A DNA stretch of 64,000 bases. It comes from a virus. The stretch spans positions 1 to 64,000 of IMG/VR virus record IMGVR_UViG_3300020473_002209; one strand, 5' to 3'. The position numbers were made by a program, and so were the translations under genes. This document shows, piece after piece, positions 2,610 to 48,684 of this stretch; the first letter of the stretch is position 1; each line of letters begins with the position of its first letter. The notes beneath the pieces are model-generated. The model was not told the origin of the DNA, searched no databases, and saw only the letters and a list, made by a program, of their open reading frames with translations.

Positions 2610-4760
2610 ATGGCTTCTTTTACACAATTAAGAGTGCTCAATGCAACCGGTTCATTCGGTGTCGCAGAGGGCCAAATTAATGATGACACATCTCAGCTTG
2701 CCCAAACCGGCTCAATCGGCGCGGACAACTTAGGTGAATCATTATCTTACATGGCGGCCGCAATCCGCCGTATTCACGGTGGTGACTGGTTCTCGAACCA
2801 AGCTGTCGGTGTTTTCTCAACTACAATCAAACCAAACGCTGCGAACAAAGATATCGGTGCTACTGACGCAGAATGGGGTGATATCTTCATTGGCGATGGA
2901 AAGTCACTCAAGCTAGGTAATGGTCAAGAGTCTTTCGTCTCTGATGCTGGCCCTGGTCTTCAAATCGGCTCATCCGAAGTAATCAAGATTGGTGTTGACG
3001 CAAACACGGCAAATATCGATATTGGTGCTGTTGCACAAGCTAAAACAATCACAATCGGTGACGACGCCTCAACAAAAGTTGATGTCAACGCTCTAGCGAT
3101 TGAACTTGATGCTGGTTCAAACGGATACACGATTGACGGTGCTGGAAACTCAACACTCTCAACCAGTAACAACGGAACACTCACTATCGATTCTGCTGGT
3201 GCGTTAGTTATCGATACTGACGGTACTGATAGCATTGATATCGGTGTTGAGGCTGTTGCCAAGACAATCACGATTGGTAATGATGCTTCAACGAAAGTTG
3301 ATGTCAACGCTCTCGCGATTGAACTTGATTCTGCTGGAACACTCGTTGGTACTTCGACAACTTCAACTTCTCTGACAGCAACAACCACAATGACCGTTAC
3401 CGGTGGTGGTGTTTCCAAGTTCGGTGATGATACTGCAACACTCGATTTTGACGGCGCAGGTGCTGTTACTGAAACTGCTATGGCTTCATTTGAAATCACT
3501 CCTTCTGGCGCTTTGACAATGAAAGGTGGTGGTGCTTCCAAGTACGGTGACGATACTGCAACTCTCGATTTCGATGGTGACGGTGCTGTTACTGAAACTG
3601 GAATGACTTCATTCGTTATTAGCCCTTCTGGCGTTACTACGCTCGGTGGTGGCGGTCTCGTTACACTAGACTCTTCTGGTGCAGCAAATGACATCAATAT
3701 TGGTGTCGAAGCTGCTGCTAAGGATATTGTTATCGGTAATGCTGCTTCTGCGCTTGTTGACATTAACGCTCTTGCTGTTGATATTGACGGAGTAAATAGT
3801 GTTTCAATGGTCGGAGCAGGCGGCGCTACTTTTGGCGACGATACTAAGACTCTCATATACGACGGTTCTGGTAATCTTGATCTCACCGCTGGTACTCTGG
3901 ATATTGATGCTTCTGGTTTAACCACAATTGATGTTACCGGGAATTTGTCAATAGACTCTAGTGATAACTCCAACCTCTCTGTTACTGGAGCTGCTAAGTC
4001 TCTGGTCGTTAACGCTGCCGGCGGTGGCGCACAAACGCTCCAATTACTGTCGAGTGGTTCTGGTCCTACTGCTGTTCAAGTTAAGGGTGAAGGTGGTGTT
4101 GCGATACAAGCTGGTAACACAAAGTCGATCTCTATTGGTAGCGGCGGAACAGCTGAGGTTATGGTTACCCCAGACTCTACTGCTGCTGACTCTAAGATCA
4201 AGGTATTCGCTGAGAACGGTACCGCTGCTAACACAAGAACAGCTAACACTAATGCTCTCTCGCTACAAGCTCCTGCTGGTGGCGTGCACATTAGTGGTGA
4301 CGCTGTTATCTTGTCAGGTTCTGGTGCTCAAGGGGTTACTGTCTATGGTGATGGATCTATGACTTCTGGTAAGGGTGGTGCTGGTATGCTTTTCGGAGCT
4401 GTTGCTGATTACGGTACTTTCCGTGGTAAGTCTCTTTTCTCAGCTGGAACAACTGTTATCGGTGCTCTGAACACTCTCGCTGACAACATTACTGGTGCGA
4501 CTGCTACGATCTTCACAGGTTCTATCGCGACTAATATAGCTGCCGGTGGAAACGCCACAGTTAAGAAGCAGGCTGGTGATAACGCTGCGTTGGCTCCAGA
4601 TTGCGGAATCGAGAAAGCACAGGTATACGTCAATGGTCAGTTGCTTGTTTCGTCTTCAATCGGCGCAACAAACGATTACCGGATTTCTGCTAATGACACG
4701 ATCATATTCGAATTCGATCTACGCGTTGGTGATATGATCATGGTTGTTGACCGTTCCTGA
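2610..4760 (+). CDS. Repeat-rich beta structural protein (tail-fibre-like)
   Basis: This 716-residue protein consists largely of short beta-type repeats: units with KTITIGDDASTKVDVNALAI (two close copies and one diverged) and units with KFGDDTATLDFDG (two close, one diverged). Such repeats are common in fibre-like proteins of marine T4-like phages. The last ~50 residues (VYVNGQLLVSSS, DYRIS, FEFDLRVGDMIMVV) match the C-terminal pattern of the 409-2220 product, suggesting a shared assembly or attachment module. An AAGGA lies upstream of the ATG, and a strong terminator follows about 45 bases after the stop. The 107-base leader (2503-2609) is T-rich with no clear structure. No catalytic motif is visible. 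Confidence 0.7.
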   Translation: MASFTQLRVLNATGSFGVAEGQINDDTSQLAQTGSIGADNLGESLSYMAAAIRRIHGGDWFSNQAVGVFSTTIKPNAANKDIGATDAEWGDIFIGDGKSLKLGNGQESFVSDAGPGLQIGSSEVIKIGVDANTANIDIGAVAQAKTITIGDDASTKVDVNALAIELDAGSNGYTIDGAGNSTLSTSNNGTLTIDSAGALVIDTDGTDSIDIGVEAVAKTITIGNDASTKVDVNALAIELDSAGTLVGTSTTSTSLTATTTMTVTGGGVSKFGDDTATLDFDGAGAVTETAMASFEITPSGALTMKGGGASKYGDDTATLDFDGDGAVTETGMTSFVISPSGVTTLGGGGLVTLDSSGAANDINIGVEAAAKDIVIGNAASALVDINALAVDIDGVNSVSMVGAGGATFGDDTKTLIYDGSGNLDLTAGTLDIDASGLTTIDVTGNLSIDSSDNSNLSVTGAAKSLVVNAAGGGAQTLQLLSSGSGPTAVQVKGEGGVAIQAGNTKSISIGSGGTAEVMVTPDSTAADSKIKVFAENGTAANTRTANTNALSLQAPAGGVHISGDAVILSGSGAQGVTVYGDGSMTSGKGGAGMLFGAVADYGTFRGKSLFSAGTTVIGALNTLADNITGATATIFTGSIATNIAAGGNATVKKQAGDNAALAPDCGIEKAQVYVNGQLLVSSSIGATNDYRISANDTIIFEFDLRVGDMIMVVDRS
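3042..3330 (+). repeat. Intragenic repeat A (two close copies, one diverged)
   Basis: About 70 bases at 3042-3111 recur at 3261-3330 with mainly third-position changes, encoding TITIGDDAST...DVNALAIELD twice. A more diverged third copy lies at about 3715-3789. The synonymous pattern of change indicates old duplication under protein-level constraint rather than recent copying. Confidence 0.75.
3414..3633 (+). repeat. Intragenic repeat B (tandem, two close copies)
   Basis: About 97 bases at 3414-3510 recur at 3537-3633, encoding SKFGDDTATLDFDG and SKYGDDTATLDFDG followed by AVTET and a SFxIxPSG turn. A diverged third unit (FGDDTKTLIYDG) follows near 3830. These are units of a beta-repeat shaft. 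Confidence 0.75.
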
Positions 4761-46708: not shown

Positions 46709-47197
46709 ATGCCAGAAACATTATCAGTTACCGATATGTTGCCGAACAAGTTCGAGCCGAAAAGAAAATTTAGGTGGGTGTTCGCAATTGAAGGTATTGA
46801 CGCATTTTTGATCAAGACGGCTGCTCGCCCTACAATGAACACCGCTGAGGTTGAAATTCCCTTTATTAACTCTACCCGCTTTATTGCTGGTAAGACGAAG
46901 TTCGACGCTTTATCAGTCACACTTCACGATCCGATTGCTCCTTCAGGTGCACAGCAGGTTATGGAATGGGTTCGTACCCACTATGAATCTGTCTCTGGTC
47001 GCGGTGGTTATGCTGACTTCTATAAGCGCGATTGCCAGCTTAAGCTGCTTGACCCCGTAGGTACGGTGGTTGAACTTTGGGATATGAAAGGATGCTTCCT
47101 AACCTCAGCCGCTTTCGGTGACCTGGACTATGGTTCAGAAGATCCGGCAGAAATCTCATTGTCGATTCGTTTTGATAACTGTGTACTTCAATACTGA
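46709..47197 (+). CDS. Tail tube protein (gp19-like)
   Basis: The 162-residue protein matches T4 gp19 in size (163) and pattern: NKFEPKRKFRWVFAIEG, ARPTMNTAEVEIPF, FDALSVTLHDPIAPSG, and the end GDLDYGSEDPAEISLSIRFD. It stacks as hexamers to form the inner tube that the sheath surrounds. AAGGAG precedes ATG. A strong terminator follows 25 bases after the stop, consistent with separate, high-level expression from the upstream motif. Confidence 0.95.
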   Translation: MPETLSVTDMLPNKFEPKRKFRWVFAIEGIDAFLIKTAARPTMNTAEVEIPFINSTRFIAGKTKFDALSVTLHDPIAPSGAQQVMEWVRTHYESVSGRGGYADFYKRDCQLKLLDPVGTVVELWDMKGCFLTSAAFGDLDYGSEDPAEISLSIRFDNCVLQY

Positions 47198-47249: not shown

Positions 47250-47310
47250 GTTTACAGTGAAGTATCGAAGTTTAAGATAATCATAATGTTGTTAAGCATG
47301 AGGTGTATTT

Positions 47311-48171
47311 ATGTCAACTGAACAAGGCGGCGGCCCCGGCGGCCCAGAGAGAAGCGAAATTTTCGGATCCATGAAGGGACACATGCCCTCCCGAAATGTT
47401 ATGAAGGATGATTTCGGGTTTGAGATTCCTGTTGAAGTTGTTCCTCTCCCATCTGGTGGTAAGTGTTATGATGCCGAGCATCCGCTTTATGGTCAACAGA
47501 CCGTTGAAATAAGAGCCATGACAGCCCGTGAAGAAGATATTCTTACTTCAAAAGCTCTCATTAAGAAGGGTACCGTTATTAGTCATCTTCTAAAGTCATG
47601 TATGATTGATAAGCGTGTTAATCCTGATACAATGTTGGCTGGTGACAGAAACGCAATCATGGTCGCGATGCGCGTGACAGGTTATGGCGCAGCCTATAAT
47701 GTGGAAGTTGATTGCCCTGCATGCGGTGAGCGCTCTAAGCAGTCATTTAATCTTGGTGAATTACCAATTAAGCGATTAGATATTGAGCCTGCTGTTGAAG
47801 GAACGAATCTGTTTGAAGTACAGCTTCCTGTTACTAAGGCGAAATGTCGTTATAAGCTCCTCACTGGTACTGATGAGCAAGACATTATGATCGCTTCCGA
47901 AAGAAGAAAGAAGCAAGGTCAAAGAAGCGAAAACCTTATTACTTCACGCTTACGTTCTTCAATCGTTTCCGTAAACGGCGTTAGCGATCGTACTAAGCTT
48001 GACATGTTTGTATCGAGTCTACCGGCAAGAGACTCGTTGTTCCTAAGAAAGCATATTGATAAAAATGAACCTGGTATTGATATGACGTCCTGGATGGATT
48101 GTCCTTCCTGCTTGGAACACTCGGAGGTTAGACTGCCCCTGGGGGCGGCGTTTTTTTGGCCTGACGAATAG
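47311..48171 (+). CDS. Baseplate hub / tail assembly protein (gp26-like), zero-frame product
   Basis: The 286-residue protein has the pattern of T4-like gp26 family proteins: VPLPSGGKCYDAEHPLYGQQ, RAMTAREEDILTSKALIKKG, AGDRNAIMVAMRVTGYGAAY. Two cysteine pairs, C135-PA-C138 and C264-PS-C267, could bind one zinc. The end, PLGAAFFWPDE, is a normal end for the family. The gene lies between tube and tape measure, the place of tail assembly chaperones in many phages. Near its end a seven-T run (48151-48157) precedes a second open frame that continues 86 codons, suggesting a frameshifted longer form. Confidence 0.8.
   Translation: MSTEQGGGPGGPERSEIFGSMKGHMPSRNVMKDDFGFEIPVEVVPLPSGGKCYDAEHPLYGQQTVEIRAMTAREEDILTSKALIKKGTVISHLLKSCMIDKRVNPDTMLAGDRNAIMVAMRVTGYGAAYNVEVDCPACGERSKQSFNLGELPIKRLDIEPAVEGTNLFEVQLPVTKAKCRYKLLTGTDEQDIMIASERRKKQGQRSENLITSRLRSSIVSVNGVSDRTKLDMFVSSLPARDSLFLRKHIDKNEPGIDMTSWMDCPSCLEHSEVRLPLGAAFFWPDE
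48151..48157 (+). other. Candidate programmed frameshift site (TTTTTTT)
   Basis: The gp26-like gene reads GCG TTT TTT TGG CCT GAC GAA TAG here. A Phe tRNA on the T run can re-pair perfectly after a +1 or -2 shift, entering the frame that encodes the 48158-48415 extension. The extension frame is open from 48086 and has no good start codon or ribosome binding site of its own. Confidence 0.6.
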
Positions 48172-48415
48172 CACCAAAGAAATATTCCTCGAGCAGATTT
48201 TCTTGTTGATGTACTACATGGGGTTTTCCTATGTGGAAGGCTACAATTGCCCAATATGGATGCGCCATTGGTTTATCAAGCGGCTTAACGATGAGATAAA
48301 GAAGTCCAATGGTAAGCAGTCATCTCATGCTGCCCACCAAAACAGTCCTGACGCTAGAGCGATGATGGGAAGATATCGTTCCCAAGTACCAGCAAAATTG
48401 CGTAGATTTACATAG
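48158..48415 (+). CDS. Frameshift extension of the gp26-like protein
   Basis: After the T run the alternative frame reads GLTNSTKEIFLEQIFLLMYY then MGFSYVEGYN, CPIWMRHWFIKRLNDEI. The segment IFLLMYYMGFSYVEGYNCP and the following W-FIKRL belong to a small conserved pattern I recognise downstream of gp26-like genes and before tape measure genes. Conservation-like sequence begins upstream of the only possible starts (TTG 48203, ATG 48209), which lack a proper ribosome binding site. This favours expression by frameshift as a 367-residue fusion, as for the G/GT chaperones of other tailed phages. If translated alone it would be a 70-residue protein. Confidence 0.6.
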   Translation, partial: GLTNSTKEIFLEQIFLLMYYMGFSYVEGYNCPIWMRHWFIKRLNDEIKKSNGKQSSHAAHQNSPDARAMMGRYRSQVPAKLRRFT

Positions 48416-48418: not shown

Positions 48419-48435
48419 TTGTAGAGGTGGTAAAA

Positions 48436-48684
48436 ATGGATCCAGTTAAACGACAGTTTCTAAAAGATTGCGCAAGATACATTCGAGGTGAAATAACCGA
48501 AATTAGGCTTAATGGCCCAAAGAAGACCATAAAGTTGTTCGCAGAAGCGTTGAGAGAGTCAAGGAACCTCTATACTGCTCTACACGGTAACAAGAAGATT
48601 TCAGATGTAATGCCGATTTTGGAATCCAAGAAATTTGCAACATCCAAGCTACGAAAAGCTACCGGGTTTGTGTGGCCTTTTTAA
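48436..48684 (+). CDS. Small conserved protein upstream of tape measure
   Basis: I choose ATG 48436, preceded by AGAGGTGG; a GTG three codons earlier lies within that ribosome binding site. The 82-residue product (FLKDCARYIRGEITEIRLNG, LFAEALRESRNLYTAL, ATSKLRKATGFVWPF) is a basic helical protein that I recall as conserved between hub genes and the tape measure in T4-like marine phages. Function is unknown; a tail assembly accessory is likely from its place. Confidence 0.65.
   Translation: MDPVKRQFLKDCARYIRGEITEIRLNGPKKTIKLFAEALRESRNLYTALHGNKKISDVMPILESKKFATSKLRKATGFVWPF

Follow-up and report, generated by a model that had tools for sequence, protein, structure and literature searches.

The window analysed here is a stretch of 64,000 nt that forms part of a 126,620-base IMG/VR virus record. 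In the 5' to 3' direction it carries genes for a tail sheath and a tail tube protein, a gp26-like gene, a short ORF and a 1852-aa tape-measure-like ORF (Table 1). The gp26-like gene (G) thereby sits between the tail tube gene (46709-47197) and an ORF that had no PHROG match and is probably the tape measure gene, as judged from size and position only. The tail tube protein also matched Pfam Phage_T4_gp19 below the cut-off. G was matched by PF12322 (T4_baseplate; E 2e-16, 60.6 bits against a cut-off of 24.5, profile positions 10-218 of 219) and by phrog_150 (E 2e-20, positions 20-233 of 282), and the short ORF upstream of the tape measure candidate gave no significant family match in Pfam and PHROG profile searches. 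Across the whole record, each part occurs once, and a search revealed no further gp26 paralogue.

Table 1. Features of the putative tail assembly chaperone locus and its neighbours (positions in the window)
Feature	Position	Strand	Evidence
Tail tube protein (gp19-like)	46709..47197	+	phrog_4542 tail tube, E 1e-29; phrog_45, E 2e-10
Shine-Dalgarno sequence of the G gene, GAGGTG	47300..47305	+	sequence
G, putative short chaperone form, gp26-like, 286 aa, 0 frame, ends FFWPDE-TAG	47311..48171	+	PF12322, phrog_150
48-nt block around the slip site	48118..48165	+	nucleotide-identical in several diverged relatives
Predicted +1 slip site, UUU_U	48154..48157	+	P-site wobble T in 56/56 relatives; adjacent Phe free (TTC in 11/56)
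T, putative frameshift-encoded extension, 85 aa + TAG, +1 frame	48158..48415	+	conservation, pN/pS, no Shine-Dalgarno sequence or conserved start
85-aa ORF, GTG start, between T and tape measure candidate	48427..48684	+	ORF call
Probable tape measure protein, 1852 aa	48762..54320	+	size and position

An earlier note, made from the letters of the window, had proposed that a programmed +1 (or -2) frameshift on a poly-T slip site joins the gp26-like protein to a conserved extension (T). All its coordinates were exact when checked against the sequence: the ORF 47311-48171 ending in FFWPDE-TAG, the run of seven T at 48151-48157 and the open +1 frame from 48086 to 48415 are all present. At the junction, the 0 frame reads GCG TTT TTT TGG CCT GAC GAA TAG, and the +1 frame reads TTT TTT GGC CTG ACG AAT AGC and stays open up to the TAG at 48413-48415; across the T run, the +1 frame gives FFGLTNSTKEIFLEQIFLLMYYMGF. 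With TTT (48154-48156) in the P site and TGG (48157-48159) in the A site, the first codon after the shift would be GGC (48158-48160), and the fused product GT would comprise 367 aa by translation. The predicted junction peptide is AAFFGLTNSTK for a +1 shift and AAFFFGLTNSTK for a -2 shift.

We scanned viral contigs, which yielded 80 relatives, and added isolates by tblastn. A dual reading of the tail gene appears to occur in more than 150 related contigs and phages. We analysed 64 sequences with a TTT/CTT_TGG junction, the window included, setting near-duplicates and truncated contigs aside; slip-site statistics were calculated from 56 dereplicated sequences. The alignment of homologues that the earlier note had suggested as a check gave the same arrangement throughout: in 64 of 64 sequences the short frame ended in FFWPDx-stop and the conserved extension lay in the +1 frame. 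Relatives as distant as about 30% identity carry the extension, with isolates represented by the Flavobacterium immuto phages, Microcystis phage Mel-JY01, Bacillus phage SP-15, Streptococcus phage GXN1 and Streptomyces phages BRock and LuckySocke. In some relatives, the +1 frame is closed by a stop codon 14 nt ahead of TGG, so that the shift must fall within the final few codons of G. In the window, the open +1 stretch upstream of the T run (48086-48150) is incidental.

A homopolymer error in the T run, with one intact gene in reality, was among the points that the earlier note wished to see checked. Such an error does occur in this family: IME-SM1 has five T where Moby has six, and other Menderavirus records are one base longer. 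For the window, this explanation is refuted by independent relatives: the 56 dereplicated sequences, both contigs and isolates, come from different studies and share one frame relation, and many of them carry TTCTTTT only. In all 56, the 0 frame terminates 9-18 nt past TGG.

The third base of the P-site codon was T in 56/56 sequences (TTT in 55, CTT in 1). The junction reads TTY TTT TGG in 55/56 and CTT TGG in 1/56. Elsewhere in the gene, 196 of 509 Phe codons (39%) are TTC; the comparison with the P-site wobble base gives a Fisher p of 2e-11, which is indicative only because the sequences are related and non-independent, and the argument lies in the unanimity across diverged lineages. The neighbouring Phe codon is free to vary (TTC in 11/56). 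A +1 shift leaves the P-site wobble base unread in the new frame, so dual coding does not explain its constancy. In distant relatives, the slip sites are UUU_CAC (SP-15), UUU_CGU (GXN1), UUU_CGC and UUU_CAG (BRock and LuckySocke) and UUU_CUA (LR756508); the Flavobacterium immuto phages have CUU_U, and LIS04 has UUU_A, where re-pairing would be poor. From these comparisons, the slip is a +1 movement on UUU_U, replaced by UUU_C or CUU_U in distant relatives.

Polymerases are known to slip on homopolymers, and the window and most relatives carry T7, so that the shift might be transcriptional. Runs as short as TTTT are, however, too short for polymerase slippage, and 11 of the 56 relatives have four T only (TTC TTT TGG), one has TTT CTT TGG and the distant ones have UUU_C. 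Transcriptional slippage is therefore highly improbable. The same relatives bear on the proposed poly-T slip site: slippage on a codon of the T run is supported, whereas the whole T7 is not needed and UUU_U suffices. They also decide between the two directions that the earlier note had left side by side. On T7, tRNA-Phe in the P site could also pair after moving back by two bases. On TTC TTT TGG and TTT CTT TGG, P-site re-pairing is possible at +1 only (UUU_U and CUU_U, with pairing on UUU), whereas a -2 shift would re-pair poorly (UUU to UCU; CUU to UUC). Ribosomal slippage by -2 is known from phage Mu, the sole natural example that PMC3498833 names; for the window it is very unlikely, and we retain +1.

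Besides the P-site codon, we examined two further predictions of frameshifting, concerning selection on the extension and independent initiation. In its own frame, the pN/pS of the extension was 0.14 for close pairs and 0.34 for all pairs; in the other two frames, these bases gave 1.1 and 1.7 (all pairs). The segment upstream of the conserved Met had a pN/pS of 0.087 in close pairs. The extension is thus under strong protein-level selection upstream of any possible start codon.

This result bears on the alternative that T is a small protein in its own right, translated from a start codon of its own by coupling to, or reinitiation past, the G stop. Database annotations of short 'gp51' ORFs in cyanophages and Vibrio phages would agree with such a product, as would a Met codon at the LMYY position in 49/54 relatives and an ATG that overlaps the G stop in phages AV101 and D533. 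A separate protein does not account for selection on the codons before the Met, nor for the wobble constraint on the slip codon. Moreover, the mean Shine-Dalgarno energy was -8.5 kcal/mol before G starts and -1.4 kcal/mol before the conserved Met of T, which is weaker than at random positions (-3.0 kcal/mol). At the two possible starts in the window, TTG 48203 and ATG 48209, we found no Shine-Dalgarno sequence either, as the earlier note had stated. Five relatives have replaced the Met by TCG, GTT, ATA, GTA or CTG, two (L070 and L075) have no start codon anywhere in the extension frame, and no in-frame ATG or GTG was found near the G stop among the +1 relatives. We regard an independently initiated T protein as very improbable. 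With its slip site kept under wobble constraint, its extension at a constant offset and its relatives devoid of a conserved start or ribosome binding site, the proposal of a programmed frameshift held, and a programmed +1 shift very probably operates in the window virus.

We propose that most ribosomes would read 47311-48171 and release G, a tail chaperone of the T4 gp26 family. A fraction would stall when tRNA-Phe is paired with UUU 48154-48156 in the P site and the A site presents the Trp codon UGG, and the tRNA would slip forward by one base. At UUU_C sites, tRNA-Phe would move onto UUC; UUU to UUC re-pairing has been argued for influenza PA-X (PMC3498833). Sequence comparison shows the dual-frame arrangement, the constraint on the slip site, the coding selection on T and the kinship of gp26 and gp51 described below; that the shift takes place in vivo, with what efficiency and ratio of products, and which parts the products play in assembly, we infer. 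If the pair works as gpG and gpGT of lambda do, the tape measure would be coated by G, and a helical T domain would allow GT to bring in the tube protein. The G:GT ratio is presumed to be constitutive rather than set by feedback of the prfB type.

No conserved stimulator of the +1 site was found among Shine-Dalgarno-like tetramers and nearby folds in the relatives. A Shine-Dalgarno-like tetramer lies 8-9 nt away in 26/54 members of the +1 clade, the A-site codon is TGG and not a stop, and no clear nearby RNA fold recurs across relatives. A hairpin just 5' of the slip site (-10 kcal/mol in the window) was rejected as a stimulator because it was no more stable than shuffles across relatives.

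A block of 48 nt around the slip site (48118-48165; 12/12 synonymous codons) is identical in the window and in L009, L013, L015, L022, L024 and L032. Elsewhere in the gene, these viruses share only about 43-57% of synonymous codons, and the block is patchy on the gene tree, requiring at least 4 changes. Selection on the RNA, short-tract recombination or another role may account for it.

G and T of the window were folded separately, G with AlphaFold. The G model (pLDDT 83) matched predicted gp26-family proteins of many contractile phages; it had no PDB relative, the matched gp26-family structures all being predicted and none solved. The T model has helices at residues 6-23, 27-32 and 35-52 and a low-confidence tail, and gave no significant match in the fold search. 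The extension alone yielded weak matches only in Pfam and PHROG (DUF6760, E 0.05; phrog_34754, E 0.13) and no match by tblastn against phages.

In single-copy T4-like phages we found the extension in the -1 frame after the gp26-like gene, past T TTT TTC. This frame relation was present in 98/98 loci (80 cyanophage-like, 17 others and Aeh1). Phages with this arrangement include Cronobacter phage S13, Aeromonas phages ZPAH1 and AS-szw, Agrobacterium phage OLIVR5, Synechococcus phages S-RIM2 and S-CAM7, Pseudomonas phage pf16, Vibrio phage CZ01 and Rhizobium phage RL38J1. T TTT TTC (U_UUU_UUC) occurred in 89/89 unique -1 loci. The base before TTT, which is the third base of the preceding codon, was T in 89/89, compared with 62% T in codons for the same residue elsewhere in the genes. 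The C of TTC is the first base of a -1-frame Arg or Gln codon and was left out of the constraint count as dual-coding. A Shine-Dalgarno-like tetramer lies 9-10 nt upstream in 88/89 loci, and the downstream 60 nt were more stable than shuffles (z -1.6 vs -0.45 in the control). The wobble constraint on T TTT TTC, the upstream tetramer and the downstream fold are marks of bacterial -1 programmed shifting. The short ORF of OLIVR5 matched phrog_634, 'baseplate hub assembly catalyst' (E 2e-7). In Aeh1, a gp51-like extension is present, unannotated, 3' of gp26 (L123, after 3789). Unannotated gp51-like extensions were likewise seen in gaps of ~160 nt after gp26 in ZPAH1, S13 and AS-szw (L097, L098 and L107).

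Several members of the family depart from these patterns. The 595-kb huge phage L004 (LR756511) groups with the +1 clade and has GGT TTT TTC and a -1 extension (around 4681); the slip direction may thus have changed on more than one occasion. In the Ackermannviridae-type phages AV101 (L103) and Vibrio D533 (L106), the slip sites are weaker (A ATT TTC and CTT TTC); given their ATG at the G stop, members of this type may use translational coupling instead of frameshifting. We considered IME-SM1 (L101, KR560069) as a switch from -1 to +1 and rejected it in favour of a one-base loss relative to sister records: its slip run at 3193-3197 has 5 T where that of Moby (L221, MN095772) has 6, and its gp26 annotation enters the wrong frame. 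The missing T is probably a sequencing error.

T4 itself has two genes of this family. Its gp26 and gp51 both matched PF12322 (E 9e-64 and 4e-52), which identifies them as paralogues; profile comparison of gp51 with gp26 gave E 9e-23. Gp51 is longer at its C-terminus by about 50 residues (phrog_150 columns to 280). In hhalign comparisons, the -1 GT fusions aligned with gp51 over 240 columns (E 5e-24), and the -1 T parts alone did so with probability 98.4, E 6e-15 and a score of 69.7, against at most 13.7 for column-shuffled controls. The -1 extension is thus homologous to the C-terminus of gp51. Compared directly with T4 gp51, T of the window clade reached a probability of 2.5, the same as shuffled controls, whereas with T of the -1 clade it reached 85-88 (E about 1e-6), above controls. 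Homology of the window T to the -1 T is moderately supported by these profiles, and the link to gp51 runs via the -1 clade only. T4 gene 26 ends in ...GLKEFFELL (GAG TTC TTT GAG), close to the slip position of relatives and with no slip heptamer, and gene 51 is in frame through the junction. We discarded the notion that T4 gp51 is merely the next ORF after gp26, as the two genes diverge there.

A tree of the G domain (59 rows; long deep branches make the root and exact placement unsure) separated two groups with an SH-aLRT of 100: that of the window, which is +1 and includes the -1 phage L004, and the T4-like group, which is -1 and includes the IME-SM1 artefact. T4-type gp26 and gp51 fall together in a single clade (SH-aLRT 98), nested within the T4-like group of frameshifting phages. 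The simplest reading of this tree is that frameshifting was ancestral, that duplication replaced it in the T4 lineage and that the slip direction changed between the two groups. In T4, the gene would have been duplicated, with gene 26 making the short form only and gene 51 carrying the extension fused in frame. By sequence, gp26 resembles a short (G) and gp51 a long (GT) tail assembly chaperone. We consider it likely that gp26-gene frameshifting is ancestral and near-universal in the T4 superfamily and related contractile-tailed phages, with switching between -1 and +1, and that T4 genes 26 and 51 are a resolved duplicate locked as short (G) and long (GT) forms, gp51 being the GT chaperone. 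This conclusion extends beyond the claim of the earlier note in including T4 gp26 and gp51.

The G-T frameshift was described as widely conserved 'except T4' in a 2016 review (PMC5009743). T4 has thus stood apart from the other long-tailed phages, in which this frameshift is conserved, and its gp51 is essential and listed as of unknown function. Gp51 is absent from the particle, and gp26 and gp51 have been listed as chaperones (PMC3004832). If our reading is right, both proteins gain a testable role, T4 is no exception to the G/GT rule and the family shows clearly how a duplicated gene has taken the place of recoding. Sullivan et al. (2010) reported that cyanophage gp51 has about 20% of the T4 length, with the first ~200 residues absent and a matching C-terminus, that gp51 is missing only in Aeh1, and offered no mechanism (PMC3037559). 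Here, the cyanophage 'gp51' corresponds to T parts that would be read from gp26 by a -1 shift, and Aeh1 has an unannotated one. This explains both the '20% length' and the apparent absence, and corrects the annotation of many phage records. In agreement with the earlier note, which knew of no described frameshift in the gp26 family, our literature search, which reached only a minority of subscription journals, found no paper proposing one.

At the codon level, the window site resembles prfB (RF2; CUU_UGA) and influenza PA-X (UUU_CGU), where a P-site tRNA likewise slips onto UUU or UUC at +1 (PMC3498833); the PA-X sequence UUU_CGU also occurs at the junction of Streptococcus phage GXN1. The window has UGG and not a stop in the A site, and its clade lacks a conserved close Shine-Dalgarno-like stimulator. 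Among contractile-tailed viruses, a very likely +1 shift has been proposed for the G-T pair of the haloarchaeal myovirus HSTV-2 (cited in PMC5009743). Lambda gpG/gpGT (-1), P2 and Mu likewise encode, beside the tail tube and tape measure genes, a short form and a rarer long form made by frameshifting near the end of the first ORF, and their second ORF has no start of its own, as in the window. The lambda-type analogy drawn in the earlier note is supported by the order of the genes and by the family at large, with function attributed by that analogy; the window clade differs in using +1, and we claim no sequence relation to lambda G/T. The family also allows +1 and -1 shifting to be compared at one homologous junction. 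A further close counterpart is T4 gp26/gp51 (PF12322, phrog_150 and phrog_634), whose G domain belongs to the same family as that of the window: T4 has two genes and no slip site, whereas the window virus has one gene and, very probably, a +1 shift.
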